Of a stretch of 64,000 bases of DNA, positions 33,550-51,575 are shown piece by piece. The notes beneath the pieces are model-generated. The model saw only the letters and a program-made list of their open reading frames with translations. It was not told where the DNA came from and searched no databases. How positions within the stretch are numbered: position 1 is the first letter of the stretch; every line of letters begins with the position of its first letter. Both the position numbers and the translations under genes were made by a program. The DNA is from Hyalangium ruber (GTDB lineage: Bacteria > Myxococcota > Myxococcia > Myxococcales > Myxococcaceae): contig NZ_JAXIVS010000016.1 in assembly GCF_034259325.1 (NCBI RefSeq), positions 162,248-226,247 of the forward strand. The letters are read 5' to 3'.

Positions 33550-33571
33550 CGTAAGGCGGAAGCAAAACCCT

Positions 33572-34330: not shown

Positions 34331-34971
34331 CGTGGGCACCCTGTGACAACGATGGTGAGGGTCCGGTCCCGCTCCTCTAACGCGGCCCTGTGAGCCTCGC
34401 TGCTCACGCCAACGGTAAACCCATAGTCACAGGCCTGCGCGATGGCACGCTCGTCCCGAAACTCCTCTACTTGATCTGAGAGCACCTGATTTTGGAGAAA
34501 GAGCGAGTACGTCTCGAAGCGGTCGGTCTTGATCTCCCATAGCATGCGCACGCCGACCTGCAGCGCGTCGAAGCGCTTGCCATTCACGAGGACGTCCCTG
34601 CCGGGGTAGCGGTTGGGCGGGAACGTGTCCGCACACTTGTTATGTGCGTCATCTCCACCCCGGTGAGGCACCGGGATGGGCGCACACTCCGGGCGGCGCT
34701 CGGCTGTCACAGGGGCTGAGGGGCCTCTGTTCGAGCGGGAGCTATCCGGAGATGGGGCCGCTTCCGGCTCCAGCTGGGTCCCTGGGTCCACCATGACGGT
34801 GACTGGGGGAGTCAGTCCCACAGGCGATGGCAGAACAATGGGCTTCGGACCGGCGAGCGGCGCTGCCCAGGGAACGGCGATCTGGTTGTGCTGCTTCGTC
34901 GGCTGCTGCGGCGCTGTCGCCGCGCAGCCGACGAGAAGCAACAGGAGCGCGCTGCAAGCTCGGAAGCTCAT
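34327..34971 (-). CDS. DUF6310-like lipoprotein, probable nuclease-type effector
   Basis: 214 residues. Lipobox (LLLLLVGCAATAP), a Pro/Ser-rich stretch of about 90 residues, then the conserved domain KCADTFPPNRYPGRDVLVNG, KRFDALQVGVRMLWEIKTDR, and VGVSSEAHRAAL near the end. The FDAL...WEIK spacing looks like a PD-(D/E)XK nuclease core (D, then ExK), though this is by eye. The combination of export signal, toxin-like C-terminus and coupled DUF5953 gene suggests a delivered toxin with its immunity protein. The pair is exactly bracketed by repeats R1 and R2. Confidence 0.65.
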   Translation of the reverse strand: MSFRACSALLLLLVGCAATAPQQPTKQHNQIAVPWAAPLAGPKPIVLPSPVGLTPPVTVMVDPGTQLEPEAAPSPDSSRSNRGPSAPVTAERRPECAPIPVPHRGGDDAHNKCADTFPPNRYPGRDVLVNGKRFDALQVGVRMLWEIKTDRFETYSLFLQNQVLSDQVEEFRDERAIAQACDYGFTVGVSSEAHRAALEERDRTLTIVVTGCPR

Positions 34972-35044
34972 TCGATATCCGGTCAGTCACGAGCCGGGGG
35001 CGGCCCAGGCCCGTTTTACCCTCAGAGCAACCTTCACAGCCATC

Positions 35045-35068
35045 GGAGGCGGCGGGAATCGAACCCGC
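35045..35068 (-). repeat. tRNA/tmRNA 3'-end repeat R2 (left end of the 16-kb island)
   Basis: Identical to R1 over 24 bases (GGAGGCGGCGGGAATCGAAC plus CCGC on the plus strand). Identity stops at both ends: the bases after the acceptor strand differ from those at R1 and R3, as expected when different elements recombine at one core. It lies 74 bp upstream of the DUF6310 start and 1.52 kb from R1. Confidence 0.7.
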
Positions 35069-36457: not shown

Positions 36458-37648
36458 CTAGGCGGAGCTACCCGGCGACGTGATGACGTGATCAGCGGAC
36501 AGCTTGCGCGTCGTGGACGCGGAATCTTGAGCAGTCGGGCCGCCTACGTCCTTATGCATGCGGGCCGCTCGCGCTATACGCCGCACCTCCGCGATAGCTT
36601 CGGGGGCTCCGTAAGGAGCGCCCAACGCAGCCAGCCCTTTGCGTAGATCGTCCTCAAGGGCTGCCGCTGATGGGTAGCGGTCTTCCGGGCGCCGCTGGAG
36701 CAACGTTCGGAGGATGGAGCGCAGAGGGGGGAAAACGTTCGCCGTCAGTTCCTCCACCTCTCGGGCGGTGTACGTAGCGGCCCGCAGGATGTAGTCGTCT
36801 ACTTGCTCGGGCAGTTCGACAATCGTCGCGAGGTTGTGAGCGGCTACCACCTTGGCGCGCACCTCGGGCGTTAGGGCTTCCTCTACGTCAGCCGCGCGCA
36901 CCGTGAGCGTGCCGTAGAGCCCTCTACCCGTGGCGATCTCCAGCATCACCAAGCCCAGCGCGAACAGGTCCGAGCGCGAATCCATCGGTTCGCCTAGAAG
37001 TGCCTCGGGGGCGCCGTAGAAGGCATCCCCCTGCGGGCGGGGCACCGTGGTCGCCACCCGGCCCGGTAGGAGCGAGCGGGCAAGCGCAAAGTCCGTAAGC
37101 CTCACGGAGCCATCCGCCTTCAGGTAGATGCGGGCGGGGTTCACGTCTCGGTGAATGATGCCCAGCGGGCGGCCCTTCTCGTCCGTGCGCGTGTGCGCGT
37201 GGTGGAGAGCGCTCGCCACTTCGGCGCCCACGTAGAGCGCAAAGCCAGCAGACAGGCAGACGCCGCGCATGCACGCGGCGGTAACGTAGGTGTCGAGCCG
37301 CGTTCCTGAAACGCGCTCGCAGAGGATGTAGAGGGCGCCGTGAGACTCGGCCCGTCCCAGAACCCGGGCGATGTTGGGGTGATCCAGGTAGGTGGCTAGC
37401 CGCGCCTCCTCCTCAAGCCGAGCGCGGATCCTGGCCAGCGATTCAGGGTCATGCTTGGGCGAGGTGGGCAGCACTCGCCGCGCGATGTAGTTTCCTTCCG
37501 GCCCGAGGCGTGAACGCTGCTGCACGATCATCACCGTTTCGCCGTGGTTGGTCGTCTCCAGGACACGGAGGAACGCATACGAGAAATCACCGAGGGAGAA
37601 GAGGATCAGCCCCTCCTCGGGTATCTGGGGGCCTGTAACGGTAGCCAT
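36458..37648 (-). CDS. Serine/threonine kinase-like protein, probable pseudokinase
   Basis: 396 residues with a whole kinase fold: glycine loop region degenerate, the beta3 Lys replaced by Arg (IARRV, 55-59), catalytic loop HRDVNPAR (166-173) with the usual Asn replaced by Arg, and the metal-binding DFG changed to DFA (186-188). The Asp of HRD and the APE-like GAPEAL are kept. Loss of three of the core catalytic elements points to a binding or scaffold pseudokinase. No transmembrane segment; the tail after the fold is short. ATG at 37648. It reads toward the XRE and small-protein genes, which may form one module with it. Confidence 0.8.
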   Translation of the reverse strand: MATVTGPQIPEEGLILFSLGDFSYAFLRVLETTNHGETVMIVQQRSRLGPEGNYIARRVLPTSPKHDPESLARIRARLEEEARLATYLDHPNIARVLGRAESHGALYILCERVSGTRLDTYVTAACMRGVCLSAGFALYVGAEVASALHHAHTRTDEKGRPLGIIHRDVNPARIYLKADGSVRLTDFALARSLLPGRVATTVPRPQGDAFYGAPEALLGEPMDSRSDLFALGLVMLEIATGRGLYGTLTVRAADVEEALTPEVRAKVVAAHNLATIVELPEQVDDYILRAATYTAREVEELTANVFPPLRSILRTLLQRRPEDRYPSAAALEDDLRKGLAALGAPYGAPEAIAEVRRIARAARMHKDVGGPTAQDSASTTRKLSADHVITSPGSSA

Positions 37649-37836: not shown

Positions 37837-38020
37837 GGCTGAGCTGGAGCGCTTCGAGGTGGCGCGCCTCGGGCCGAGGTGGAGCTGTCGGACGCGCGCC
37901 CCGGTGCCGAGGTGGAGCTGTCGGACGCGCGCCACGGTGCCGAGCTGGAGCTGTCAGACGTGCGCCACGGTGCCGAGCTGGAGCGCTTCGAGGTAGCGCG
38001 CCTCGGGCCGAGCTGGAGGT
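37837..38020. repeat. Minisatellite array A (33-35 bp units)
   Basis: Six units with the core GAGCTGGAG or GAGGTGGAG at 37841, 37876, 37909, 37942, 37975 and 38010 (spacing 35, 33, 33, 33, 35). Each unit is followed either by CTGTCGGACGCGCG or by CGCTTCGAGGTGGCGCG, then CCTCGGGCC or CCACGGTGC. Units are contiguous, with no unique spacers. The array fills the gap between the kinase-like gene promoter and the end of the next module. Confidence 0.8.
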
Positions 38021-38087
38021 AATTGATCGTCGTGCCCTGACCAAGAAGAGAAGGACGCGAGACTGAAGCTGTGTCAGCGTCCTGCGC

Positions 38088-38117
38088 GCCCTGTTTCCGC
38101 TCTGAGTGAAACAGGGC
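38088..38117 (-). terminator. Hairpin downstream of the Lys-Pro repeat gene
   Basis: GCCCTGTTTC and GAAACAGGGC form a perfect 10-bp stem with a 10-nt loop, 65 bp beyond the stop of the gene on the minus strand. No T-run follows, so termination would be factor-assisted, or the hairpin may serve to protect the mRNA end. Confidence 0.4.
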
Positions 38118-38181
38118 TGTCTATCTGGCAACTCATGGGCGGTGGCCACCCTAACACTACGGAGCAGGGCCAACACTTGCC

Positions 38182-39117
38182 TTACTGTTTATCTTCAGCC
38201 ATCGGCTTGGAGTCAGCAGCTTTCGGCTTGTCTTCAGTTCTCGGCTTATCTTCAACCTTCGGATTGGTCTCAGCAGCCTTCGGCTTGTCTTCAGCCTTCG
38301 GCTTGGTGTCTGCAACTTTCGGCTTGTCTTCAGCCTTCGGCTTGGTCTCAGCAGTCTTCGGCTTGTCTTCGGCCTTCGGATTGGTCTCAGCAGCCTTCGG
38401 CTTGTCTTCGGCCTTCGGCTTGGCCTCAGCAGCCTTCGGCTTGTCTTCGGCCTTCGGCTTGGTCTCAGCAGCCTTCGGCTTGGCCTCAGCAGCCTTTGGC
38501 TTGGTCTCAGCAGCCTTCGGCTTGTCTTCAGCCTTTGGCTTGGTGTCTGCAACTTTCGGCTTGTCTTCAGCCTTCGGCTTGGTCTCAGCAGCCTTCGGCT
38601 TGTCAGTGGCCTTTGGATCCTCTTCAACCTTCGACTTGTTATCAACGGCCTTCGACTCGTCGTCGGTCTTCGGCTCGTCTTCGCTCCCTTGGAGAGGCAA
38701 AGCAAGGGTCTGCCGATCTCTTGCGGTTTCCTTCACTAGAGAGTCAATTTTTGCATTGAGCAAAGCCACCTCGCGACTCAGTTTGCCAATCGTTGCCTCG
38801 GCTTTGCTGATTTCAGAAACCTTCTTGTTTAGCTCGGCGCTGTTACTCTCAAGGCGATGCAGTGTGACCTTGAGTTCGGCCAAACCTTCGATCCCGCCAA
38901 TAGTTGGCTTGGCGCGCAATTTATTAAGAATCAGCAGGCTTACCGAAACCGAACTCATGGACAGCAAGAGCACAGCAATCAGCAAATAGCGCTCCACCCC
39001 TCTCTGTTTCGACTTGGCTTTCTCTTTTGATGTGGGAAGGGCAGGGACTTCTACAAATACATCCGAGCGCCGGGGTAATTGCAGGTCTTCTGGTGTAGGA
39101 TCTCGCCAATTACCCAT
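38182..39117 (-). CDS. Membrane coiled-coil protein with Lys-Pro repeat tail
   Basis: 311 residues. Short cytoplasmic N-terminus, one transmembrane helix (about 44-68, YLLIAVLLLSMSSVSVSLLI), a coiled coil (about 80-130, LHRLESNSAELNKKVSEISK and LSREVALLNAKIDSLVKE), then about 170 residues of heptads KPKAAET / KPKAEDK / KPKVADT to the end. The tail is charged, disordered and could span the wall. The ATG at 39117 overlaps the GTPase stop by 8 bp, so the two proteins are made together. Base composition is less GC-rich than the flanks. No family known to me; partner function with the GTPase is inferred. Confidence 0.7.
   Translation of the reverse strand: MGNWRDPTPEDLQLPRRSDVFVEVPALPTSKEKAKSKQRGVERYLLIAVLLLSMSSVSVSLLILNKLRAKPTIGGIEGLAELKVTLHRLESNSAELNKKVSEISKAEATIGKLSREVALLNAKIDSLVKETARDRQTLALPLQGSEDEPKTDDESKAVDNKSKVEEDPKATDKPKAAETKPKAEDKPKVADTKPKAEDKPKAAETKPKAAEAKPKAAETKPKAEDKPKAAEAKPKAEDKPKAAETNPKAEDKPKTAETKPKAEDKPKVADTKPKAEDKPKAAETNPKVEDKPRTEDKPKAADSKPMAEDKQ
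38200..38625 (-). repeat. 21/42-bp coding tandem repeat (KPKAAET/KPKAEDK)
   Basis: About 20 imperfect 21-bp units, often alternating in 42-bp pairs, encode the Lys-Pro tail of the coiled-coil protein. The units keep the reading frame, unlike the non-coding arrays around the module. Length variation between strains is likely. Confidence 0.85.
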
Positions 39118-40171
39118 GACGCGATTTCCTAGCACCGCCCGCCTGCGACACTCGGCGAGAACCTGTGGGGGCATGCACAATCGCAGAATGTCCCTCCTCG
39201 GCATCTACCGCAGTCGCCATGAGGTCTTCTTCAAGATGAACAACCTGATCCCCCTCCTTGACCGAGCCAACATACACCTGAAACTTTATGCCCAGATTTC
39301 GACAGCGTGACTGCAACCGGAGTTCAAGCTCTTTGAACATCCCTCGGACAGACTGTGGGCTGCGCGCCGAGAGCAAATCTGCCTTGTTTATAAAGAGGCA
39401 CACATACTTAAGCCCATCAGCCGTTAAGAATCCAAAAATAGCATCGAGGGCGGTGTCACTCCATTGCGCGAGATGCCCTCTGATACGGTTCTCGTTCGGC
39501 TCTTTGATTTCTGTTTTCTCGGGCTCCCCTTCCTTGGTCGGGGGTTCCTCAATATCAACGAGAACGATCAGTGAATTCACATAACCATACGCCATAGGCG
39601 AATATGGTACTTTTTGCAGCTGAATGAATGCGCGAACGAGAGCGCCAACATTCTGACCCTTGTAGTCTGAAATATATAGATGATGCAGGGACTGATCCCC
39701 GTCATCCTCCGTATGCGCAGGATTGAGGTAGTCTTTCTCTTTGTAATGGAGATTGCGCTCTCCATGATAGAGTCTGTAGTTTTCAGTCTTCTTTTCGGGA
39801 TTGGCTTGCGGATTATGCAACAGACTACGAATTAGCGTTGTTTTCCCGGTGCCGCCCAAGCCAATCATGATCACGGAATTGCGCTTGGCTGGAGGAGGAA
39901 GTTTGACAGGCCTGTTGTATGATCTCGCAACTTCCTGTCTGGCTTCTTCGAGCTTGTGCTTGATGTACTGCTTGATGACCCATGCAATGAGTCCAATGAC
40001 AGTAGTCCCCGCTGCACCAGCTATACCTGTTGCCCCTGCGCATGAAACTGCGTCCGCTCCAGACTCCTGTGCATTTGCAGATGCGCTAACCAGCACTGCA
40101 ATCAGGAAACTGACGTGTCCACGGGCCCCCCAGTAGTACCGTTCCTGTGAAATCATGCGATACAGAGGCAT
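39110..40171 (-). CDS. Membrane-anchored P-loop GTPase of unknown family
   Basis: 353 residues from the ATG at 40171, preceded by the strong site AAGGAGGGTG. N-terminus: hydrophobic segment (about 20-34) and a second one (about 48-67, GIAGAAGTTVIGLIAWVIKQ), then a basic linker. The GTPase core shows the P-loop GLGGTGKTTL (104-113), a switch-II-like SDYKGQN and the guanine-specificity motif NKAD (in CLFINKADLL). The Asn-Lys-x-Asp motif argues for GTP. The domain should lie in the cytoplasm. It is coupled to the coiled-coil gene. Less GC-rich than surrounding genes, suggesting transfer. Membrane GTPases of this layout occur in bacterial conflict systems, but no specific family is claimed. Confidence 0.75.
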   Translation of the reverse strand: MPLYRMISQERYYWGARGHVSFLIAVLVSASANAQESGADAVSCAGATGIAGAAGTTVIGLIAWVIKQYIKHKLEEARQEVARSYNRPVKLPPPAKRNSVIMIGLGGTGKTTLIRSLLHNPQANPEKKTENYRLYHGERNLHYKEKDYLNPAHTEDDGDQSLHHLYISDYKGQNVGALVRAFIQLQKVPYSPMAYGYVNSLIVLVDIEEPPTKEGEPEKTEIKEPNENRIRGHLAQWSDTALDAIFGFLTADGLKYVCLFINKADLLSARSPQSVRGMFKELELRLQSRCRNLGIKFQVYVGSVKEGDQVVHLEEDLMATAVDAEEGHSAIVHAPTGSRRVSQAGGARKSRHG

Positions 40172-40529
40172 TTTCACCCTCCTTTCAGGCTTGCCAGGAA
40201 AGCTGGCTAAGTTTTTTGTTGTTCCTTCCAAGGCTGAGGATCACTCTTCATCCAATGGAGGAACCCTACCATGAAGATCTGGAACGCATGCCCATAGGGA
40301 CTCTGCCCCGCTGTTGGTCTCTAAACTAATTCGGTCCAAAGCTAGTTGCCCTGTCCACATCTCGGTCAGCTGCATCTGGGCTCGGTGGGGCTTTGAGTAT
40401 CGAGGTCCGTCTGATGGGCCCGTGGAGTCCTTTCTCTCTGGATGGATGCATCGGGCGCTGTGGAGCCCTTGCTCATTGGAGGGGTGCAGCCGAACGGCCC
40501 TGTCGCTGTGGTGAGACGGGGCACGGCGA

Positions 40530-40930
40530 ACTCCTACAGCTGGAGCGCTTCGAGGTGGCGCGCCTCGGGCCGAGCTGGAGCGCTTCGAGGTGGCACGCCA
40601 CGGGCCCGAGCTGGAGCTGTCCACGCGCGCACCACCGGGCCCGAGCTGGAGCGGTCGGACGTAGGCGCCTCGGGCCGAGCTGGAGCGCTTCGAGGTGGCC
40701 GCCCCTCGGGCCGAGCTGAAGCTGTCCGGCGCGCGCCACCAGGCCCGAGCTGGAGCTATCGGCCGCGCGCGCCACTGGGCCGAGCTGGAGCCGTCCACGC
40801 GCACCACCGGGCCCGAGCTGGAGCGCTTCGAGGTGGCGCCCCTCGGGCCGAGCTGGAGCTGTCCGATGCGGGCGCCACCGGGCCCGAGCTGGAGCTGTCC
40901 GACGCGCGCCACCGTGCCGAACTGGGCGCC
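40530..40930. repeat. Minisatellite array B (33-36 bp units)
   Basis: Twelve contiguous units of the same family as array A, with GAGCTGGAG cores at 40537, 40572, 40608, 40643, 40677, 40713, 40747, 40782, 40815, 40850, 40886 and 40919 (steps 33-36, mean about 35). Steps are not multiples of three, so no reading frame is kept. Unit halves CTGTCCGACGCGCGC and CGCTTCGAGGTGGC alternate irregularly. The 300 bp between the GTPase gene and the array hold no gene that I can support. Confidence 0.85.
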
Positions 40931-40943
40931 GCTAGCGCTGGCC

Positions 40944-42812
40944 CTAGTAGCGCGGCGGCTCCCAACTCGTAACGGGGCGTCCGCCCACGTTGTTACCAGT
41001 CGTCGCCTTGTCGTCTTTCAGTTCCTGAATCCTGGCTGGGGTGGAGACGACGCACACCGGGTACTTTCCTTTGCCGGGGATCTCTACGTGGTCGTAGATG
41101 ACAAACAGTGTTCCGAGGGGATCGCCTGAGACTCCATCGGTCTTGTAGGCCCTGCCATACAAGAGGGCGCCGCCTTCCGGGACCTCCCAAAAACGGGCGC
41201 CCTCAATACGGCCGGTCACTGGGGCCCCCAGAGTGAACGTCCACAAGCCACGTTCCCCGCCTCTCTCGTCGAGTCTCACGGCCAAGTCTGCATCAGGTTT
41301 CCCAGGCACGCGGATCCATCCTAGTTTCTCCATGGCTTCTTGCGCCCCGGGTGGGCACTCGAAGGGCTCGGCCTTGGTGCGGACGGACGCGCATCCTTCA
41401 GTAGCCATGGCGACCGCCAGCGGTAGCGCCTTGCACCACGCCGGGAAGCCGGGATCACTCTGGGCGGGGGGGGCTTTCGTCGCGCGTGCGCTACGGGACG
41501 ACTTGGGAGCATCGGGCGGCTTGGGCTTCACGGTGGATCCTTCCTTCGGTGCAGTTGCGGGAGCGGGAGAAGACACAGGCGGGAACTTCTCAGGGGGAAG
41601 CGCCGGAGCAGTCGGGACGGGTGGCGCGGTAGCCTCTTTCAGCGCGGGCGCCGATACAGGCCCGGGGCGTTCTCCATGCGTCAGCCACGCGGCACCAGCA
41701 GCAGCCACTGCGACGGCGCCCACCGTGGCCGCGAGTGCCAGGGGCCTGCGCCTGTGCTGGCGGGAGGGAGCCGACTGGAGTCGGCCCCGGAAGCGGGCGG
41801 CCTGCTTGTCAGCCAGTGCCAGCACCTTGCGCCAACCCTGTTTCCCCTGTGCCGCGAGTCCGGCTGCCTGGGCCCCGTCTCCGGGCGGTGGCTGGCGCTG
41901 TACCGAGGGCGGGTGTACCTCTGCCGCGTATTCTGGCCCCGGGTGCTTGGCCAACTCTTCCAGCCTGCGCCGTAGCGCCTTGAAGTTCACCGGCCTTTGC
42001 GCTGGGTCGTGCGCTAACAAGTCCTCCACCAGCGCGCTCAAGGCTTCCGGCACACGCGGGTTCACGTCTCGGGCTGCGGGCAGGTCCCCCACGCGATCCG
42101 AGAAGTCCAGCCGAGGCGGTTCCCTCGACGGCAGCGGAGCGGTGAGCATTTCGTAGAGCATGACCCCCACGGCGAAAAGTTCATCCGTCACCTTGAACGG
42201 GTAACGCCCTCCGTGCTTGCGGCCCTGCTGGTAGTAGAAATCCCATGCCTCATAGGAGCGGTAGCGATCCGTGCCTGGGCCCAGTGGTGTTGTCGTCAAC
42301 TCCTCGGCGTTCTCGTAGGTCGCACAGCCCAGATCGATGATCACTGGCTCGCCGTTGCTGCTACGGATCATCACGTTCGCCAACTTCAAGTCACGGTGAA
42401 ACACCTTGGCCTTGCGCTTGTGCATGTACTCGACGGCCCCGGCGATCTTGGCGAACACGCTACAAACCTCGCGGAAGGTGGGAAACGTGCGCTCCTTCCA
42501 CTCTCCCAGCGTCCAGCCGTCCACGTACTCCAGCACGCAATACACGCGCCCATCGGGCAGGTATCCGAAGCCGCGCGGCTTGATGATGTTGGGATGATCC
42601 AGCGTGAGCAGGAGTGACACCTCCTGGAGAGCGCGCGTGTGCGTCTTCCCCGTGTCGCCGCTCTGCTCCCGGTGGACTGCGACTTTGATCGCGAACGCCT
42701 TGCCGTGTTGCTCGGCATGGTGAACGGCACCAAAGCCGCCCGTGCGAAGGGCGCGGACGATCTGCCAACCGTCAACGAGCGTGCCGGGTTGAAGTTCAAC
42801 CGCTCCGATCAT
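40944..42812 (-). CDS. Serine/threonine protein kinase, membrane-anchored
   Basis: 622 residues. Kinase domain 16-290: glycine loop RTGGFGAVH, ATP Lys43 in FAIKVA, catalytic loop FHRDLKLANVMI and DLG in place of DFG (common in this group), so it should be active. Then a linker, a transmembrane helix (about 365-388, ALAATVGAVAVAAAGAAWL), a Pro/Lys-rich stretch and a C-terminal extracytoplasmic domain of about 200 residues with Cys and a KGKYPVCVV block. Its ATG overlaps the DUF2381 stop (ATGA). The DUF2381-kinase pair is recurrent in myxobacteria. The last codons run into the edge of array B. Confidence 0.85.
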   Translation of the reverse strand: MIGAVELQPGTLVDGWQIVRALRTGGFGAVHHAEQHGKAFAIKVAVHREQSGDTGKTHTRALQEVSLLLTLDHPNIIKPRGFGYLPDGRVYCVLEYVDGWTLGEWKERTFPTFREVCSVFAKIAGAVEYMHKRKAKVFHRDLKLANVMIRSSNGEPVIIDLGCATYENAEELTTTPLGPGTDRYRSYEAWDFYYQQGRKHGGRYPFKVTDELFAVGVMLYEMLTAPLPSREPPRLDFSDRVGDLPAARDVNPRVPEALSALVEDLLAHDPAQRPVNFKALRRRLEELAKHPGPEYAAEVHPPSVQRQPPPGDGAQAAGLAAQGKQGWRKVLALADKQAARFRGRLQSAPSRQHRRRPLALAATVGAVAVAAAGAAWLTHGERPGPVSAPALKEATAPPVPTAPALPPEKFPPVSSPAPATAPKEGSTVKPKPPDAPKSSRSARATKAPPAQSDPGFPAWCKALPLAVAMATEGCASVRTKAEPFECPPGAQEAMEKLGWIRVPGKPDADLAVRLDERGGERGLWTFTLGAPVTGRIEGARFWEVPEGGALLYGRAYKTDGVSGDPLGTLFVIYDHVEIPGKGKYPVCVVSTPARIQELKDDKATTGNNVGGRPVTSWEPPRY

Positions 42813-43654
42813 GGCTTGGGCTCCTTTGCTGGCGGCAGTTTCACTTCAGGAATCGAGAGGGACGGCGCCCCCTGCGCGCCGTTCAGGTGCAAGGTGAAAT
42901 CAAGCCCCGCGCTTGGCAGTGGCACGTCCGTTGTCACGAGCACCCGCACCGCGTTCGGTTGCTTGCCCGGTTTCACCGTCACTGCCCGCACCCCCACCTC
43001 TCCGGTCTTGCTCGTCAACGTGGCTCCGGTTGGCCTCCACGCTGGCTGCCTAGGCGGGGGGATGATCTCCGCGTCCACCAGCACCCAGCCCCCCGCGCGA
43101 TAGGTCACGCCCTCTTTCAACTCGAAGCCGCTCGCGGCGTCCGTGAAGAAGCCAAGCGGTCGGGTTCCTACTCCGCCGCTGTCGATGAAGCCGGAAGCGA
43201 TGGCATCCGCCGCACTCAGGGCGGCGCACGGCGCGCACGTCGGGCAGGCTGTAGGCGATTCTTCGGGCCGTGCAACGTCGATCTCTGTGTCCACCTCGGA
43301 GGGGTGCGCGACTAGCGAGAACTCGGCTACTTCGGACGCCTTCCCATCAGCCAACGGGACACGCAACGTCCAACATTCACCGGGGCGGGGTTCGCTCAAC
43401 GGCTCGAACGCAAGGATCGCGTCACCCGACGCAACGACCTTGATCCGCGTCGGGTCCACTTCCACGGCCTTTCCACGGATGGGGACTGAGAAGACAAGGA
43501 ACGTGCGGATCCCCGTGGCGATGCGTGCCTCTAGGGGGGCGCCGGTCAGCGTGAAGGAGCGGCGGCGCGGCTCGCGGGTAGGCGCCGGTTGTGCTTGCGC
43601 CAACGTCCCCCCGAGGAGGAGCAGCGCAAGAGCCAGAGTCGCGGGTGAGAGCAA
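42809..43654 (-). CDS. DUF2381-like secreted protein
   Basis: 281 residues from a TTG start at 43654, chosen because GGAGG sits 10 bases before it and a clean signal peptide follows (LALALLLLGGTLAQAQP). A GTG at 43681 would add nine residues without a ribosome site. The body fits DUF2381: RSFTLTGAPLEARIATGIRT, PLSEPRPGECWTLRVPLADG, a CPTCAPC cluster and VLVDAEIIPP. It is a periplasmic or surface protein coupled to the membrane kinase, whose extracytoplasmic domain it may contact. The function is unknown. Confidence 0.75.
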   Translation of the reverse strand: MLSPATLALALLLLGGTLAQAQPAPTREPRRRSFTLTGAPLEARIATGIRTFLVFSVPIRGKAVEVDPTRIKVVASGDAILAFEPLSEPRPGECWTLRVPLADGKASEVAEFSLVAHPSEVDTEIDVARPEESPTACPTCAPCAALSAADAIASGFIDSGGVGTRPLGFFTDAASGFELKEGVTYRAGGWVLVDAEIIPPPRQPAWRPTGATLTSKTGEVGVRAVTVKPGKQPNAVRVLVTTDVPLPSAGLDFTLHLNGAQGAPSLSIPEVKLPPAKEPKP

Positions 43655-43681
43655 GGGGGCGTTACCTCCGAGGTAGGCCAC

Positions 43682-44150
43682 CCTAGCAGACCCGGCGCGG
43701 GCGCTGTGAGCGCTCGACGGGGCCGCGCTTCACGAATCAGGCGCGCCGTGCCGGGGTGCCTGGCGCCAAGCACCCCCGCAGCAGTGGGCTGGGCCCGCGT
43801 GGCCCCCGTATCCCTGCTTCCGTGCTTCACCGTACCGGACCGATGTTCGCCGGGGCGCGCTCGGTTGCTACCTAGGCTGGGCGCGCTGCCTGAGTTGTGC
43901 GCTTGCCTGCCGGGCGTGGAAGGCATGCCGCGCGCGTTCCTGCTCCGCCTGCGGGCGGCACTGTCGGCGGGTCCCCTGTGGCGCACGTACGTAAAGGGCC
44001 CGCCATGCGTTCAAGAGGCGTAGGCGCGGATTCGGCCGCATCCGCCAGGGCGCCGCCGCTTCTAGAGCCTCCAGGACTGGTTAGCGCGCTGCTTCGCTGG
44101 CGCGCTCCCCTGCCCGGTTTCCGCACTGCCAAGCTGCGGGCGTGCTCCAC
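43682..44150. other. Gap without a supported gene
   Basis: About 470 bp between the DUF2381 gene and array C. It must hold the promoter of the DUF2381-kinase operon. The open frames here are short or are shadows and show no protein-like composition. Nothing else is recognised. Confidence 0.5.
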
Positions 44151-44154
44151 GGCC

Positions 44155-44675
44155 CGGGTTGGAGCTGTCCGCGCGCGCACCACGGGGCCGAGTTGGAGCG
44201 CTTCGAGGTGGCGCCCTCGGGCCGAGCTGGAGCTGTCGGACGCGGGCGCCACCGGGCCCGAGCTGTCGGACGGGGCGCCCTCGGGGTGAGCTGAAGCTGT
44301 CCGACGCGCGCACGACCGGGCCGAGCTGGAGCTGTCCACGGTGCCGAGGTGGATCTGTCGGACGCGCGCGCCACGGCCCGAGGTGGAGCTGTCTGACGCG
44401 CGCACCACCGGGCCGAGGTGGAACCGTCCGATGCGCGCCACGGTGCCGAAGTGGAGCTGTTGGACGCGCGCACCACCAAGCCGAGCTGGCGCTGTCCGAC
44501 GCGCGCACCACCGGGCCCGAGCTGGAACGCTTCGAGGTGGCGGCACGGTGCCGAGGTGGAGCTGTCCAACGCGGCGCCTCGGGCCGAGCTGGAGCTGTCC
44601 GACGTGCGCGCCACGGGCCCGAGCTGGAGCTGTCCACGCGCACACCACCGGGCCGAGCTGGAGCTGTCCGACGTA
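44155..44675. repeat. Minisatellite array C (about 16 units)
   Basis: The longest array of the family. Cores vary (GAGCTGGAG, GAGGTGGAG, GAGTTGGAG, GAAGTGGAG), and steps run from about 24 to 38 bp, mostly 33-36. Some units have lost half (GAGCTGTCGG at 44258). The typical unit reads CGAGCTGGAGCTGTCCGACG followed by CGCGCACCACCGGGC. It separates the DUF2381-kinase operon from the NTPase module. Confidence 0.85.
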
Positions 44676-44726
44676 CTACGCGGGAAGGCTGATGCCCGAG
44701 GCGGCTGCTACCGCCCGAGCCTTAAA

Positions 44727-44801
44727 GCCTATGTCGGTAGGCCCTATCCCTGGTATCCCGCTCCTCGTGCGGGGAAGTGTCGGGAAGGCCTACCAGAACA
44801 G
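44727..44801. repeat. 75-bp hairpin repeat F, left copy
   Basis: Starts GCCTATGTCGGTAGG and ends GGCCTACCAGAACAG. The arms GGTAGGCC and GGCCTACC are exact inverted repeats around an inner hairpin (CCCGC..GCGGG). A second direct copy lies at 47180-47253 (about 84 percent alike by eye, one indel). The copies bracket the NTPase gene at about 80 bp from its start and 54 bp from its stop. Confidence 0.75.
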
Positions 44802-44879
44802 TGCAGAGGTCCGCGTAGGTCAGGTGCGGTAGAACTCCCTCTGTTACAGCAGCCAGAGAAGTGGTAACTGGGAAATACC

Positions 44880-47126
44880 ATGGCCGACCCTCAAGAGCTT
44901 TCTCTAAAGAACATTGCAGACCTACTTGGCAAGCGTGCGCGCCGCATGCCGTGCCCGCAGCCTGATCATAAGTATTGCGCGGCTCACGGGATAGAACTGC
45001 ATGCCCCAGAGCCCGAATTCTATGTGCCACCCAGTTTGGCGGAACTCTCCTCTTCCCAGAATGGAGAGGCCGTCTTTCTCTTCTCTGCCCCCGCCGCAGT
45101 GGGCAAGACCAGTCTGGCCCGCGAACTCCAACGGCAGCTTGCCGCTTCTGATCGCCAAGTCGTCTATATCCCACTTAAAAAGGCTGTCATTGGGCATCAC
45201 TTTTTTTCAGGCCTATTGTCTGGGCTGTTTCCCAATGCCTCCCGCAAAGAAATCCTGGAGACCCTCTTTTCGGGGAATCTTGTACTCATCTTTGACGGCT
45301 ATGACGAGATTTCGCTTTCCTCTGAGCAACTTGAACTTAACCTGCTGTTCACCAAAGAAATTGCCGACGCCTATCACGAGTTTGTCTCTGCTCAGGGGCA
45401 ACAAGGCGAAGTAGTGCCTTGCATGCTCTTTCTCTTTAGGTCTGTCTTTTTTCATTTCGGGATTTTCAATCCTCTGGAGACATTTGCGCGTCATTTCAAT
45501 GTGAACTTCTTTAACTCAGGACAGCGCTCAGAGTATTTGACACGCTATCTTGCTGTTAATGCTGAGGGACCATACAATCCAAAGCACCTAGCCACCCCCT
45601 TTTTGGAGGCTTTCGAGAAACAATTAGCAGCCGCCAGTGCCGAGGCTGAAGCATTCTTTGGTCATGCCATCGTGCTGTCCGCATTCGGCGACTATCTGCT
45701 CAATCAAGAAGAAGCCAACGCAATGCGCTTGGCCAACTCTCTCCAAAAAGCTGGCATCAACGACACGGTATCGACAGAGGTGCTTCAACAGATTGTTAAA
45801 ACCATACTCACTCGCGAGATTTCAAAATTCCCTAACGAACCTATTGCAAAGGCTCTGCCGGGATTTGAGGGATATGGCGTAGACCTCCAAGAAGAACTGT
45901 TGCGGCGGACTGCTTACCTCCTCGCGAAGAACGGAGCAACTGCTGCTGACTTGTCCAACGCAGCGACAGAGTTGGCTACCCAGCGGTTGCAAGCACATCC
46001 AGGATTCTCAGCGCTCTCTCCGTCTGAGCAGGTCGATCTTCGCATCCAATATCAGGAGGAGTTGCTACGTAAGTTTGAGCATCATCCATTTCTGGATGTC
46101 ACTGCTGAGTCGGGCTACGTATTCAGGAATCCAATCTATCAAGAGTACTATCTAGCCCAGTTTATAACCTCAACCCCCAAGGTACTTCCTAGTTCGCTCC
46201 TTGCCCGGGGCCAATCGTCGCACTATCTAGCCCTCTTTATTCTTGCATTGCTCCCGGATCGTGAGTTCGCCAGAGCATCCCCTGAGTTGCTGTACTACAC
46301 CCTCAAGCTTCTCTCGGCCGCTACTTCTGGGAGCGAATTCGAGTTTGTAATCGAGTGGCTAGACAAGCAGCGGCACTGGCAGTGCTTGGTCTTGGGTGAA
46401 AACATCCAGATTGCACCTTTCAAGTACTCAAATGAAATTCTTGACCTGCAACTGCCGCGCGACGCGGTCTTTGAGAATTGCAACATAATCGCTGAGTGGG
46501 AGAGCGAATCTTCAAGTGCCATGGTCAGCATTCGTGGTGCTGAGGGCTTCGATGAGCGCTCAAGCACGTTCGTTCTCCGAAACGCATCCATTGCAACGAA
46601 AGAGCTTGAGTTGGATGCGGTTCGAATCCGCTTTGATACGGTATATTTGGACTGCGCCACACTGTCCTTGTCTCAGCGCGTTGCCCGTATTGATGGGATC
46701 CACACTGTGACCGCATGTCCTCAGCACCCCCTGCAGCTCAGTGCAAGCGAGTACGCTGTTAGGTCAAAATGGGGTGAGCAGTTGAGTGCCCTGCGCAGCC
46801 CGCAGGGAGACGGCTTGGACTCTCTCAAGGAGAGACTGGATCGAGTATTCCTGTGGTTCCGGAAGCATGGGAGAGTTGATTACGGTGTTTATGACAAGCG
46901 CTTTGACACTGTAGTGTTGAAGAAAGGCCGAGATGCTGATGCTAAGCGCTTGGTTGACTTTCTTTTTTCTGCCGATTTCTTGTCCAAGGATGGCCAACTC
47001 ATTGTGCTCAACCAAGGCAAGTTGGCCCAGTATGGTATTTTTTACAAACAGCAGAATGAACTCCAGGTAGATAAAGACAAGTTCTCGCGGCTCCATGAAG
47101 AGTGGCTTGAGTACATCAAAGATTAA
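44880..47126 (+). CDS. NACHT-like STAND NTPase with N-terminal Cys/His cluster
   Basis: 748 residues. A C-x4-H-x2-C-x2-H cluster lies at 25-36 (CPQPDHKYCAAH), possibly zinc-binding. Walker A is SAPAAVGKT (69-77) and Walker B is LVLIFDGYDE (134-143); DGxDE with small residues is typical of NACHT ATPases. A helical middle follows (about 250-480), then a beta-rich section (500-620) and a C-terminal domain (about 650-748) that may be winged-helix. No known effector (nuclease, TIR, protease) is seen, so the mode of action is open. Much less GC-rich and with different codon use from its neighbours, so horizontally acquired. Lone gene between repeats; an anti-phage sensor is a fair guess, not shown. 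Confidence 0.75.
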   Translation: MADPQELSLKNIADLLGKRARRMPCPQPDHKYCAAHGIELHAPEPEFYVPPSLAELSSSQNGEAVFLFSAPAAVGKTSLARELQRQLAASDRQVVYIPLKKAVIGHHFFSGLLSGLFPNASRKEILETLFSGNLVLIFDGYDEISLSSEQLELNLLFTKEIADAYHEFVSAQGQQGEVVPCMLFLFRSVFFHFGIFNPLETFARHFNVNFFNSGQRSEYLTRYLAVNAEGPYNPKHLATPFLEAFEKQLAAASAEAEAFFGHAIVLSAFGDYLLNQEEANAMRLANSLQKAGINDTVSTEVLQQIVKTILTREISKFPNEPIAKALPGFEGYGVDLQEELLRRTAYLLAKNGATAADLSNAATELATQRLQAHPGFSALSPSEQVDLRIQYQEELLRKFEHHPFLDVTAESGYVFRNPIYQEYYLAQFITSTPKVLPSSLLARGQSSHYLALFILALLPDREFARASPELLYYTLKLLSAATSGSEFEFVIEWLDKQRHWQCLVLGENIQIAPFKYSNEILDLQLPRDAVFENCNIIAEWESESSSAMVSIRGAEGFDERSSTFVLRNASIATKELELDAVRIRFDTVYLDCATLSLSQRVARIDGIHTVTACPQHPLQLSASEYAVRSKWGEQLSALRSPQGDGLDSLKERLDRVFLWFRKHGRVDYGVYDKRFDTVVLKKGRDADAKRLVDFLFSADFLSKDGQLIVLNQGKLAQYGIFYKQQNELQVDKDKFSRLHEEWLEYIKD

Positions 47127-47179
47127 GCCTTGAGTTGCGGCTGAACCCGCCCCTTGCTCTCTCTGGCCTCTATCGAGGA

Positions 47180-47253
47180 GCCTATGTCGGTAGGTTCTAT
47201 CCCTGGCACCCCGCTCCTCGGACGGGAGGTGTCGGGGAGGCCTACCGGAACAG
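47180..47253. repeat. 75-bp hairpin repeat F, right copy
   Basis: Direct copy of the element at 44727-44801: same start (GCCTATGTCGGTAGG), same inner CCCGCTCCTCG and same end (GGCCTACCGGAACAG). The inverted arms are CGGTAGG and CCTACCG. Both copies adjoin a minisatellite array on their outer side. Confidence 0.75.
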
Positions 47254-47294
47254 GCTGTTAGCCGACCAACGCACAAGGGCGGGTCAGGTCGCGC

Positions 47295-47640
47295 ACGGCC
47301 TGGAGCTGTCGGACGCGCGCACCTCCGGGCCGCGCTGGAGCTGTCAGACGCGCGCCACGGTGCCGAGCTGGCGCCACGGTGCCGAGTTGGAGCTGTCAGA
47401 CGCGCGCACCACAGGGCCGCGCTGGAGCTATCCACACGGACGCCAAGGCGCCAAGCTGGAGCTGTCCACGAGGACGCTAAGGCGCCGAGCTGGAGCGTTT
47501 CGAGCGGGCTCCCTCGGGCCCGAGCTGGCTCTGTCGGACGCGGGCGCCTCGGGCCCGAACTGGAGCTATCCGCGCGCCACGGTGCCGAGCTGGAGCTGTC
47601 CGAACGGGCTCCACGCGCCCCGAGCTGGGCGCAGCGATGG
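47295..47640. repeat. Minisatellite array D (about 11 units)
   Basis: Same family as arrays A-C, more diverged: GGAGCTGTCGGACGCGCGCA, then cores GCGCTGGAG, GAGCTGGCG, GAGTTGGAG, GCGCTGGAG, AAGCTGGAG, GAGCTGGAG and GAGCTGGCT at steps of about 19-37 bp. It starts about 40 bp after repeat F and merges into the type-E repeats at 47694. Confidence 0.8.
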
Positions 47641-47693
47641 CCGCTGCGTGGAGCGCCACCGGGCCGGGCCCGAGCGCCAACTATGGTGCCGCG

Positions 47694-47975
47694 TTGCCAT
47701 TCGCGCCGCCGTTCCGAAAGGCGCCGCGCTGCCAATTCCGCCGCCGTTCCGCAAGGGCGCCACGCTGCCCGAGCTGGGCGCGGCAATGGCCGCTGCCATG
47801 GAGTGCTCCGGCGCTGAGCTGGAGCCGCAACGATGGCGCCGCGCTGCCCGCCGCGCTGCCATTCGCGCCGCCGTCCGAAAGGCGCCGCGCTGCCAATTCC
47901 GCCGCCATTCCGCGAGGGTGCCACGCTGCCATTCGCGCCGCCGTCCGAAAGGCGCCGCGCTGCCGGAACCGGGCG
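47694..47975. repeat. Type-E alternating 34-36 bp repeats
   Basis: Two alternating units: GCCATTCGCGCCGCCGTCCG (then AAAGGCGCCGCGCT) and GCCAATTCCGCCGCCGTTCC (then GCAAGGGCGCCACGCT). The order is E1-E2, an interruption carrying two array-D-like cores, then E1-E2-E1. Several copies are nearly identical over 34 bp, so they are recent duplications or are homogenised. Not coding by composition. Confidence 0.7.
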
Positions 47976-48000: not shown

Positions 48001-49704
48001 CTAGCGGGCTGCTCCACGTCGCCGCGTCGGAGCGCTCCACCGACCTAGCAGGCGAGCGGGGATGCGGGCGGGGATTCCGGGCCCCATCAGCCAACCGGGA
48101 TGCGGGAAGGCTTCACCGGGCGCCCCGGTGGCGCCACTCGTGACGATCCCGCCTTGGCGCCGGGACGGGGGCTCCGGCGATGGCGCGGTGGGCGCCGTGG
48201 TGGGGCGTCATGGGCTCCAATTGCGCCGGGGCGGGGCCGTCATGGGCTCCGGTGGCGCCGGGGTGGCGCCGGAGGTGGCCCCGGACGTGGCTCCGGGGTG
48301 GCCCCGGACGTGGCTCCGGAGAAAGTCCCGCAGAAGTCCCGTTCTCAGCCCCGCATCAGCGCCGCGCCCGCGACACGGTCCACCTCTGCCGCCGCGCCGC
48401 GCAGGGGTTGATCCGCCCACGCGCATGGGCCCTTGGCTGCCCGGCTGTACGCTTGCCGATCTCCTGTCACGCTCCGTGCGCGGCCTGGACACCCGCCGTT
48501 GTCCTATGTCACTTCTGCCCGGGTTGTTGTGGGCTGTTCGGTTTGTCGGAGAGGCGGGTTAGGTGATGGTGGGAATCGAATCCCAGGAGGGGCAACCCTC
48601 CGTGTGTGGCGCATTCGTGCGCCGTGGCTGGCTGGCGAGTGACAACGCCGGAAAGACCGGTGACAACGCCGACAAGAACGCCGGAAACACCGGTGACAAC
48701 GCCGGGAGCAACGCCAAGAGAAACACCAGCGAAAGCGCCAGGGCGCGCCGCTGGTCACTCCAGGCGGCGCCGGTAGTCACGCCAGAGCGCCCCGCGCGTT
48801 CTCGCGCTTTCGGTGTCTCCCTTCTGCTTTGCCTGTGTGCAGGGCTGGCGAGCGGGAACACTGCCCAGTGTCCCAGCCTGATCAACGCACCGGAGCGGCG
48901 CCTGTCCGACGCGCGCGCTCTCCTCTGGGCGAGCACTCACGCCGCGACCATGTCCGCAGCCCGTGCGCCCGTCACCGTGCCGCGTGGGCCCCTCCTTCAC
49001 GCGCCCTCATGGACTCCACCGAGGCGGGCCAATCCTCGCGCCCTTGCTCGCTCTACCGTGAAACGCGGAGATCGTCGGGATCTGCCGGGGTTCGTCGGTA
49101 TACGCCTGCATTCGCCCGGATTCGCCCAATGTCCAAGCGCGCGGCGATTGGGCACCGTGGGCGCCATGATTCACGCCACACAGAACGCCCGGGAGCGGAC
49201 GCGATTGGCCCCCGCGCTTTCCAGGAGCACCGCACGCGCCCGCACCTGTCCAGAGGTGGCCAGCTCTGCCCAGGAGTGTCCAACGCGGACAGTCGCGTTG
49301 ACGGTGCAAGGCGGGACGCGAGACAACGCGGCCCATGCAGTGAGGCACGAAGGCGGCCCCCGGTACGCGGGGCGGCTCGACGTGGACAGCACCCGCAGCG
49401 CAGCGTTCCCCCTCCGCCCCCCGGATGCGCTCGGGTTGCCGCACAGCTTCGAGCTGGGCGGCTCCTCTCGCCTCACGGCATGGCGCCGCGCGTCCTGGCT
49501 ACGGGTGCGCAGCGTCGGACACTCGGCAGCCGGGAGCGTTTCACCCATGCAGGGGCAACATGAAGCACACAACCATTACCCACGGGCCAGCGGCGGGGGA
49601 CGGAGGGAACCTCGCGCGTCCGTGGCCAAGAGGCGCGGCTCTCTCAGGAGTGCGGCCCTTCCTCAAACCGAGAGAGCAGCGCCAGTGCGGGAGGGGAGCC
49701 AGCC
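48001..49704. other. 1.7-kb region without a supported gene
   Basis: Open frames here are long only because stop codons are rare in GC-rich DNA; none shows protein-like composition or a ribosome site. Visible content: GGCGCC-rich degenerate repeats (48110-48320), a tRNA-like T-arm remnant on the minus strand (48565-48590), a small GGCGCA-TTCG-TGCGCC hairpin (about 48608-48623), and a 33-bp-type minisatellite AACGCCGGAAACACCGGTGA (48642-48730). The stretch just before 49705 should contain the promoter of the excisionase-integrase operon. Confidence 0.5.
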
Positions 49705-49929
49705 ATGAGCACGCCCCCCGTTGCTGCCGTTGCTGCGCCCGCGTTTCTCACGGTGGAGGAAGCCGCCGAATTGCTCCGCGTGAACAGGAAAACTCTCTAC
49801 GAAGCGATCCGGCTGGAGCAAATCCCCGGCGTTGCTCGCATCGGCAAAACCCTACGCATCCGCCGCGCTGCCTTGCTAGAGTGGACAGCCGGTAAGGGCC
49901 GTGATTCTGCGCTTGGGAGTCGCAAATGA
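49705..49929 (+). CDS. Excisionase-like MerR/AlpA-type DNA-binding protein
   Basis: 74 residues. The whole protein is one winged helix-turn-helix: LTVEEAAELLRVNRKTLYEA followed by IRLEQIPGVARIGKTLRIRR, the 'DNA-binding protein, excisionase family' pattern. A strong GGGAGGGG site precedes the ATG. The stop overlaps the integrase start (ATGA). It probably sets the direction of recombination or regulates the integrase of this island. Confidence 0.88.
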   Translation: MSTPPVAAVAAPAFLTVEEAAELLRVNRKTLYEAIRLEQIPGVARIGKTLRIRRAALLEWTAGKGRDSALGSRK

Positions 49930-51149
49930 GCGTCAGATCGCGGAAGTGGCAGAACAAGGCAGGGAAGGCTGAGGAGGCTTGGCAAGTGGATTTCATCTTC
50001 CACCACCCGGACGGACGGCGGCAGCGAGTCGTGAAGTTCTCGCCTGTCCAGACGCGCCGGGGTGCCGAGCAGTACGAGCGCGAACTCCGCGCCTCTCTCC
50101 TCAATGGGACCTTCGGAAAGGAGAACACAGGGGAGCGCCGTATGACGTTGGCGGATTTTGCGCCGCGCTTCCTCACCTACAGCGAGAACAACAACAAACA
50201 CTCAAGCGTCGTCACCAAGCGGCAACTTCTGGATGATCACTTGCTCCCGTTCTTCGGGCAGATGGCGCTGTCTGCCATTGGTCCGGCACAGATCGAGGAC
50301 TTCAAAGCGCACATGCGCAAGAAGAAGTCCGCAGCGCGCGCCCGCAAGGAGGCCCCCACGAGGGCCGCCCTTCTCAAGCGCGGCGACGTGGAGCCCAAGC
50401 CCTTGAGCCTCAAGACGATCAACAACGTGCTCTCGGCGTTGAGCAAGCTGCTGGCACTGGCACAGGAACAAGGGGAGATCGCGCAGGCTCCGCGCGTGAA
50501 GCTGTTCGGCAAGCTGCCCAAGCCCACGTTCGATTTCCTCAGCTTCGAGGAAGCCGCGCGGCTGATCGACGCAGCCGAGCCGGAATGGCGCGCGATGCTG
50601 CTGGTGGCACTGAAGACGGGGCTTCGCCAGGGAGAGTTGATCGGGCTCCAGTGGAGTGATCTGGACTTGGCACAGGGACGGCTCAACGTGCGGCGTACCA
50701 TCTGGCGCGGGGTGACGGACTTGCCCAAGGGTGGACGTGAAAGGACCGTGGATCTGCCCGCGTCGGCGGTGGATGCGCTCAAGGGGCACCGGCACCTGCG
50801 GGGCCGCTTCGTCTTCTGTCAGGAGGACGGACAGCCGCTCACGGAAGGCAAGATGAAGCAGCCGCTTCGCCGCGCCCTCAACCGTGCGGGCATCAGCCGC
50901 GAGGAAGGGCGGATCGGGTGGCACGACCTACGCCACACCTACGCCAGCCACCTCGCGATGCGGGGCGTTCCGCTCAAGGTGATCCAGGAGTTGATGGGAC
51001 ACGTCACGATCGAGATGACCGAGCGCTACGCCCACCTGAGCCCCGACACGCGGCGAGAGGCGGTCGGTGTTCTTGACCGGCCCCTGCCGCTTGCGCCCGC
51101 ATGCGACATACGTGCAACACGGATGGAGGGCGCCGCTAACCATCCGTAA
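49926..51149 (+). CDS. Tyrosine recombinase / site-specific integrase
   Basis: 407 residues, full length. Arm-binding-like N-terminus, SAM-like core-binding domain (about 75-205), then the catalytic domain: Arg234 in TGLRQGEL, Lys in LPKGGRERTV, H333-x-x-R336 in WHDLRHTYASH, a His in GHVTIEMTERYAH, and the nucleophile Tyr368. All catalytic residues are present, so it should be active. The 3' end contains the 18-bp repeat TGCGACATACGTGCAACA and stops 17 bp before repeat R3, the classical layout of an integrase next to its attachment site. It should move the segment R2-R3. Confidence 0.93.
   Translation: MSVRSRKWQNKAGKAEEAWQVDFIFHHPDGRRQRVVKFSPVQTRRGAEQYERELRASLLNGTFGKENTGERRMTLADFAPRFLTYSENNNKHSSVVTKRQLLDDHLLPFFGQMALSAIGPAQIEDFKAHMRKKKSAARARKEAPTRAALLKRGDVEPKPLSLKTINNVLSALSKLLALAQEQGEIAQAPRVKLFGKLPKPTFDFLSFEEAARLIDAAEPEWRAMLLVALKTGLRQGELIGLQWSDLDLAQGRLNVRRTIWRGVTDLPKGGRERTVDLPASAVDALKGHRHLRGRFVFCQEDGQPLTEGKMKQPLRRALNRAGISREEGRIGWHDLRHTYASHLAMRGVPLKVIQELMGHVTIEMTERYAHLSPDTRREAVGVLDRPLPLAPACDIRATRMEGAANHP
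51102..51119 (+). repeat. 18-bp direct repeat, right copy (possible integrase arm site)
   Basis: TGCGACATACGTGCAACA, an exact match to 35195-35212, inside the last codons of the integrase gene and 48 bp before R3. Confidence 0.5.
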
Positions 51150-51166
51150 AGACGTACTGAAAAAGT

Positions 51167-51191
51167 GGAGGCGGCGGGAATCGAACCCGCT
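51167..51191 (-). repeat. tRNA/tmRNA 3'-end repeat R3 (right end of the island)
   Basis: Plus strand GGAGGCGGCGGGAATCGAAC plus CCGC, the same T-arm/acceptor core as R1 and R2, preceded by GT as at R1. It lies 17 bp after the integrase stop. The sequence beyond it (CCGTCCCGCTTCGTCCCG) is not a tRNA body. The intact RNA gene is not in this window. Confidence 0.7.
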
Positions 51192-51575
51192 CCGTCCCGC
51201 TTCGTCCCGTTCGATTCCCCGCTGGAGGGTTACGCTGAGGGCACATGCGGCCCCCAGCCCTCCAATGGGCAGCGTCCACGACGGCGCGATGCGCGCCGAA
51301 GGGCGCGCCGACACATGGAAGCGGCAGGAGAGCGCGCCTGCGTCGGACACGCGGCCCACCTCGGAACAACCGGCTGACGAGCACTCTTCCTCGACGACCG
51401 CACGCACTGCCACGCTTCATCGTGAGAGGAGCGCCATCCTCGGCGGAGGAATGGCCTCGCTCTCGGCCGCCTTGATTTCGTCATGGAGTCAGGGCGCGAG
51501 ATCTTCCGCACAGATGGGCAGAGGCGCTCCGCTCGTTAGGCCAAACAGCCAACCAAGGGCCGGGCCAGGCCGCGC
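51192..51575. other. Gap between island end and TetR gene
   Basis: About 380 bp. It begins with short GTCCCG/TTCGTCCCG repeats next to R3, similar to the CCGTCTCGTCCCGTCTTGTT sequence found at 35149-35172 inside the left end. No gene can be supported. Confidence 0.45.

Follow-up and report, generated by a model that had tools for sequence, protein, structure and literature searches.

What do arrays of a short tandem repeat do between the unrelated genes of a bacterial island? The question is raised by a 64,000-nucleotide stretch of the Hyalangium ruber genome (here called the window; the genome is G000), in which four such arrays, A to D, separate kinase genes and other gene cargo inside a predicted integrative island. 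Related arrays stand at the edges of several kinds of module, many of them predicted toxin-immunity pairs, in this and a few related genomes. The reading that we prefer, with a probability of roughly 45%, is that same-direction arrays are cassette edges and that homologous recombination between them moves gene cassettes. How single toxin-immunity cassettes enter and leave myxobacterial chromosomes is, to our knowledge, not settled.

One degenerate repeat unit in four intergenic arrays

A preliminary description of the window had reported four arrays that share one degenerate unit, and all four are present where it had placed them (Table 1). Scoring with a hidden Markov model (HMM) gave 40 units in total, on a single strand, each about 33 to 36 bp long and G+C-rich. 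Reading the arrays directly bore out the unit as described, a GAGCTGGAG core followed by one of two alternative halves, CTGTC[C/G]GACGCGCGC or CGCTTCGAGGTGGCGCGC. Between 37 and 48 kb, the longest chain of unit anchors at 30- to 40-bp steps has 11 members, compared with at most 3 in 200 dinucleotide shuffles; the arrays are not produced by chance. All of them lie in gaps between recognised genes, again as described, with array B ending 9 bp from the stop codon of the gene for kinase 2.

The description had argued against a protein repeat because steps of 33 to 36 bp are not a multiple of three. Both 33 and 36 are, so the argument fails as worded, but its conclusion stands: 62 arrays gave 110 unit steps of 28 to 42 bp, of which 46 are multiples of three and the other 64 are not, and therefore no constant reading frame is kept. 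A coding repeat was rejected on these steps, although some frames are open (stop-free frames, of six: four in A, two in B, three in C, and three in D). A CRISPR array was rejected as well, as the units are contiguous without unique spacers (mean similarity score, 0.71), which agrees with the first account. RNA folding of four stretches gave nothing unusual (z, +0.04 to +1.36), and with these ordinary folds a structured RNA or terminator array was also rejected.

Looked for in related genomes, as the description had proposed, the array family proved rare. A consensus query at an E value of 1e-7 found it in 11 of 96 genomes of the bacterial family: the H. ruber genome, which is the single representative of its genus among the 96, and 7/7 genomes of genus g15, 2/27 of g23, and 1/16 of g26. 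Scoring covered nine candidates per genome, so an undercount is possible, and weaker matches in other relatives were taken as background. A pattern scan of named genomes yielded, among the matches listed, mostly single matches in unrelated bacteria, which were taken as chance.

Arrays border four kinds of module

Array-bearing places (L followed by a number) were fetched from the H. ruber genome and ten others, and arrays within 6 kb of each other were treated as one cluster; four places in which no unit exceeded the score cut-off (L092, L263, L273, and L276) and consensus-query matches that were not fetched are uncounted. One of four modules lies within 3 kb of 34 of the 41 clusters (34 of 40 scripted clusters, to which L269, with one unit and no module, was added). 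One module is SitA5 (NCBIfam) with Imm11; another is a lipoprotein carrying a C-terminal DUF6310 domain with DUF5953; the third pairs a second lipoprotein with a 173-amino-acid protein; and the last combines DUF2381 with kinase 2 or a kinase 2 relative. Such a module sits between the arrays in 16 of the 19 multi-array clusters. In the H. ruber genome, 9 of 10 clusters are near a module, versus about 4.8% of the genome that would be expected near one (an estimate from 15 DUF5953, 20 DUF2381, and 41 SitA5 matches, with the second-lipoprotein pair not included). The arrays are thus borders of cargo modules and are not scattered through ordinary genes, as the preliminary description had held. The clusters without a module are L014, L082, and five contigs of genome G088 (L266, L267, L268, L269, and L275). 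As L267 begins inside an array and L268 and L275 begin within about 600 bp of one, the module partner may have been lost at the contig end in these three.

The SitA5/Imm11 module appears to be a SitAI toxin-immunity cassette, for which TraAB-dependent delivery and killing would be expected. The SitA5 escort domain at L084 matches NF050093 with 300.6 bits over a cut-off of 160, and SitA5 at L017, L089, and L098 has 76 to 90% tblastn identity to it. The L084 protein ends in an AHH nuclease domain (1.8e-19) and adjoins the immunity gene Imm11 (2e-9). We infer that the DUF6310 and second-lipoprotein pairs are likewise toxin-immunity pairs, from a lipoprotein signal read by eye and a predicted fold of the DUF6310 domain like that of the nuclease effectors TseT and PA3907. 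The DUF6310/DUF5953 pair had no NCBIfam match at an E value of 0.01, in a collection where not every Sit family need have a model, and no NCBIfam model matched the second-lipoprotein pair. The predicted structure of the second lipoprotein (mean predicted local distance difference test score, 45) was an unusable model.

Filled and empty slots in homologous islands

The H. ruber genome has two sister islands in which kinase 1 and kinase 2 are separated by a single array, of 21 units at L010 (contig C26) and of 9 units at L009 (contig C22). In the window, the same kinase flanks enclose array A, a GTPase cargo, and array B. The outer flank of array A is 93.0% identical to L010 and 85.1% identical to L009 up to the array, and that of array B is 84.3% and 82.5% identical, respectively. 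The next slot, after DUF2381 and a conserved leader sequence, holds the second-lipoprotein pair in C22 versus a predicted NTPase in the window; L264 in G088 has the order kinase 2-DUF2381-leader as in the window. These common flanks with differing contents indicate that homologous islands carry different cargo at the same array, the kind of difference that the preliminary description had suggested looking for. On sequence comparison, A-GTPase-B and the single array of the two sister islands are a filled and an empty slot, a difference that either gain or loss may have produced.

Both inter-array cargo stretches have 50 to 55% G+C, versus mostly 63 to 70% in the region, and the other 95 family genomes have no match to either the GTPase or the NTPase at an E value of 1e-20. 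Relatives of the GTPase are metagenomic proteins (best, 52%). Those of the NTPase include one metagenomic protein at 91% and, among others, proteins of Burkholderia, Ralstonia, Achromobacter, and Ideonella at 35 to 37%; it has only weak AAA/NACHT matches below the cut-off, and a search against solved structures returned nothing significant.

The ends of the GTPase insert form an imperfect inverted match (15/21) that was equalled by 5 of 200,000 random end pairs, in a test chosen post hoc on a single insert. An 8-bp direct repeat, AGCTGGAG, frames the insert; such a repeat can also arise inside a tandem array. No transposase was found in this cargo, whose two recognised genes are the GTPase-like gene and one without a family. 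The ends would fit transposition into the array or a crossover between units. Around the NTPase gene, 76-bp direct repeats are nested between arrays C and D as a second layer of cargo boundary; this repeat was not found in the other 29 loci blasted.

Alignments end at the arrays, which run in one direction

Borders were compared in 33 pairs of module-sharing loci (14 loci from six genomes, several from one genus). In all 33, the aligned part starts at most 74 bp before array 1 and ends at most 80 bp after array 2. The alignments touch arrays on both sides in 16 pairs and on one side in 17, with the other end inside the module; in 15 of these 17 it is the left end, the side on which the DUF6310 lipoproteins differ from one another. 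Collinear similarity farther out, within 3 kb, was seen in 2/33 pairs, and with so little outer collinearity the pairs were taken as different chromosomal places. Copies in G086 (g15) and G108 (g23) are 92 to 93% identical. Among comparisons that involve the H. ruber genome, the high values are those of L013 and L086, 94.7% identical over 981 bp, and of L015 and L095: L015 and L095 are 90.9% identical versus 77.9 to 87.2% for syntenic DNA of the same two genomes.

The leader, a conserved sequence directly 5' of array C, has 12 copies in 8 of the 96 family genomes, and in 12/12 units follow within about 80 bp. Among the loci blasted, array 2 never had a leader; in two-array loci that have one, it precedes array 1 only. 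In the fullest loci, a leader and array 1 are followed by one or two genes and then array 2. No fixed right end emerged from 18 aligned right sides, in which the similarity tails off beyond the final unit or a GACGCGGCGACGATGGC motif; insertion sequence (IS)-like DNA appears to have cut some of these loci. Sequence similar to the second repeat family, into which array D runs, also follows array 2 in L083 and L095. A little farther on, positions 48317 to 48542 are a piece of a dispersed repeat with other copies in G000 (C1 and C11), G085, and G086 and beside array 2 in L093, which may be a further right-hand part of the cassettes.

The arrays share one strand in 18 of the 19 multi-array clusters, all except L091, regardless of gene strand. 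Among genes within 700 bp of an array, each module type has an almost fixed orientation. DUF5953 and DUF6310 have the strand of the array in 13/14 and 10/11 cases, and the opposite strand is taken by the second lipoprotein (6/6) and its partner (5/5), SitA5 (4/4) and Imm11 (4/4), and kinase 2 or its relative (6/6) and DUF2381 (3/3). Pairing of arrays in the same direction would keep such a constant orientation, and common descent would too.

How the cassettes might move

If recombination between arrays moves the cassettes, the arrays would supply common homology through which cassettes are gained, lost, or swapped by RecA-type exchange; modules would keep their orientation because the arrays must align in the same direction; and islands with a tmRNA (transfer-messenger RNA)-type integrase would carry modules between strains. 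Exact stretches common to the window arrays reach 37 bp (A and B). For arrays of two or more units, the median exact stretch is 24.5 bp within a cluster, 19 bp between clusters of one genome, and 17 bp between genomes, compared with 9 bp for unrelated 400-bp pieces. These lengths are near the lower limit usually quoted for RecA-type pairing. The preliminary description had proposed that the arrays serve to insert or shuffle modules as recombination substrates. Differing content at the same array and alignments that end within 80 bp past the arrays agree with this; the lack of any sign of frequent homogenisation and some transposition-like edges do not.

Several results weigh against recombination between arrays. 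The unit similarity score is equal within arrays, between arrays, and between genomes (0.709 to 0.712), which gives no hint of frequent exchange; homogenised arrays, as recombination would produce them, were looked for and not found. Long exact stretches are scarce because the units are so degenerate. As G108 and G114 are the only 2 of 27 g23 genomes with arrays at an E value of 1e-7, an incoming cassette would probably have met no resident array to pair with. Most such modules are free of arrays: in the own-genome loci fetched, arrays adjoin only 4 of 15 DUF5953, 1 of 41 SitA5, and 3 of 20 DUF2381 matches in G000, and arrays are not required for such cassettes. Many of the H. ruber module copies are far less like those of other genomes (66 to 89% identity). 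Five of the 12 leaders (L221, L223, L224, L227, and L229) start at the same base (TAGCG) with unrelated upstream DNA, and the inverted ends and 8-bp direct repeat of the GTPase insert resemble transposition. Finally, joined flanks of three loci gave no junction-spanning match in the 96 genomes and so revealed no empty chromosomal site; the left flank of L093 is part of a gene that many genomes have in different surroundings, and for L095 and L096 the flanks had only self matches or short partial ones.

The sharp leader edges and the GTPase insert are what a nonautonomous transposable element moved in trans by a putative recombinase would leave. The leader would be the fixed left end of this element, and the arrays at both ends would be the repeats that the enzyme binds. 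This comes close behind the preferred reading and is possible, although less likely than not. It would account for the leader preceding the first array only and for modules in unrelated surroundings in related genomes. Against it, no recombinase was recognised inside the blocks mapped, both arrays run in the same direction, unlike inverted ends, and there is no fixed right end. Six other leader copies have 47 bp to 1.5 kb of upstream DNA in common with one another (one copy has diverged). Two of the five sharp edges adjoin IS-like DNA and may be IS junctions: that of L229 lies against DNA with near-identical copies in L082 and L084, and that of L224 lies against a transposase-like frame (read by eye).

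A dedicated system, in which the leader and direct arrays would be the recognised ends of mobile toxin-immunity cassettes stacked in tmRNA-targeting islands and a putative recombinase would move each cassette as a unit, we regard as doubtful. Should it exist, it would be a myxobacterial device for rewriting the kin-recognition barcode.

Slightly more doubtful still is a passive role, in which the arrays would be neutral minisatellites with a single origin next to a toxin-immunity module, carried along with islands and IS elements and growing or shrinking through slippage. Degenerate units without homogenisation or an RNA fold are what one would expect of such passengers, as are the IS-like repeated DNA beside several loci, the presence of the arrays, at the cut-off used, in only four genera of the family, and the many modules without arrays. 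This account leaves unexplained why four unrelated module types share one array family and why two arrays surround the window cargo versus single arrays in two sister islands. That the arrays regulate or insulate neighbouring genes, as terminators, promoters, or silencers, is very improbable, and the insulator role once proposed found no support: an intergenic position beside toxin-type genes would suit it, but array A lies 5' of kinase 1 and array B lies 3' of kinase 2, the folds are ordinary, and module strand relative to the arrays varies by module type.

Relation to known systems

Integron cassette arrays also hold many unrelated small cassettes separated by related same-direction repeats. 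Their attC sites are single folded sites recombined by IntI, in contrast to the multiunit arrays without unusual folding seen here. The nearest precedent that we saw is the repeat arrays of Neisseria. Neisserial intergenic mosaic elements (NIMEs; dRS3/RS arrays) are described, in the part of PMC3898611 available to us, as intergenic arrays of 200 to 2,700 bp that flank variable genes and have been suggested to promote exchange of adjacent loci; for pilC1, identical dRS3 copies are the proposed site of insertion or deletion. They are mosaics of 20-bp repeats, ATTCCC(N8)GGGAAT with terminal inverted repeats, and RS families of 30 to 160 bp, and some of the repeats are targeted by a phage integrase (PMC3898611). 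The myxobacterial arrays are likewise intergenic and flank variable genes. They differ in lacking the dRS3 pattern, in being built from one direct 33- to 36-bp unit in one direction with a leader, and in surrounding toxin-immunity or kinase cassettes.

According to the accessible portions of PMC5562445, PMC8546572, and PMC10047993, genomes carry SitAI cassettes in large numbers, frequently close to mobile elements. Here, a SitA5-family protein and an Imm11 gene make up one of the modules bounded by arrays. The three papers, in those portions, mention prophages and mobile elements and do not describe repeat arrays at cassette edges; "tandem repeat" in the accessible text of PMC5562445 denotes whole Mx-alpha units. 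Flexible genomic islands, as far as the available text of PMC4033161 goes, carry different cargo at the same place, for which exchange by homologous recombination is proposed. The evidence given there is shared bordering regions, whereas here short repeat arrays lie between modules. Titles and abstract openings among the matches listed in our literature search did not describe such arrays in myxobacteria; subscription papers fell mostly outside that search.

The set of toxin-immunity cassettes varies from one myxobacterial strain to another, and swapping at array edges would help to explain the differing weapons of related strains. Arrays that mark borders are a concrete, searchable tag for cassette gain and loss and name the junctions to compare in sister strains. 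They also suggest a short-repeat alternative to integron sites and to flanking-gene homology.

The island and its other features

The tyrosine integrase of the window adjoins a repeat of the tmRNA 3' end, and further copies of this attachment (att) core lie at the other end of the island (35045 and 33524). The region is therefore a probable integrative island of the tmRNA-gene type, with putative ends. The window integrase had no match in the fetched C22 stretches (L009 and L263), which do have att-like cores. The full tmRNA gene lies elsewhere in the genome (C6:560311-560672), together with 29 further subthreshold tmRNA-like matches, which may be relics of many islands that target tmRNA; some could be chance matches to tRNA-like sequence. 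PADLOC matched kinases 1 and 2 to the PD-T4-6 and mad6 kinase models. We did not accept them as defence genes, because kinases in general may match such models.

Table 1. Features of the window, in order of position (A to D, repeat arrays)
Feature	Position	Strand	Remark
Kinase 1, Ser/Thr protein kinase, common part of island	36458..37648	-	Pfam Pkinase 2.5e-23; same place in L009, L010
Array A	37841..38018	+	5 HMM-scored units
8-bp direct repeat AGCTGGAG, left copy	38011..38018	+	Within 43-bp repeat with 1 mismatch
Cargo between A and B	38019..40537	.	Not at this place in L009, L010
Predicted membrane/coiled protein (by eye), 39-bp coding repeats	38182..39204	-	No significant family
GTPase-like protein, low G+C	39110..40231	-	In 1/96 family genomes
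Array B	40537..40935	+	11 HMM-scored units
8-bp direct repeat AGCTGGAG, right copy	40538..40545	+	Within 43-bp repeat with 1 mismatch
Kinase 2, Ser/Thr protein kinase	40944..42812	-	Pfam Pkinase 1.3e-30; also in L009, L010, L264
DUF2381 protein	42809..43681	-	Pfam 7.9e-32
Leader, conserved ~75 bp directly 5' of array C	44082..44157	+	Precedes array 1
Array C	44156..44680	+	15 HMM-scored units
76-bp direct repeat, left copy	44726..44801	+	87% identical to right copy
Predicted P-loop NTPase, low G+C, cargo between C and D	44880..47126	+	In 1/96 family genomes
76-bp direct repeat, right copy	47179..47253	+	Long hairpin fold, z -2.41
Array D	47297..47640	+	9 HMM-scored units
Second repeat family, right-hand region after array D	47688..47964	+	Array D runs into it
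Tyrosine integrase of island	49926..51149	+	Pfam Phage_integrase 1.4e-35; phrog_1
att core, tmRNA 3' end-like	51160..51192	+	Shorter copies at 33524-33549 and 35045-35068

Three smaller observations concern the islands and assemblies. A DUF6310/DUF5953 pair without arrays, an array-free version of that module, lies between two tmRNA-type att cores of the window (33524 to 35068). Arrays lie within about 4 kb of a contig end on C10, C1, C24, C6, and C26 of G000 and on C105, C354, C144, C116, and C337 of G088, and draft assemblies may break at arrays. At positions 1107 to 1490 of L274, also in G088, an array unit directly after DUF5953 adjoins an att core and fragments of an integrase gene of the window type.
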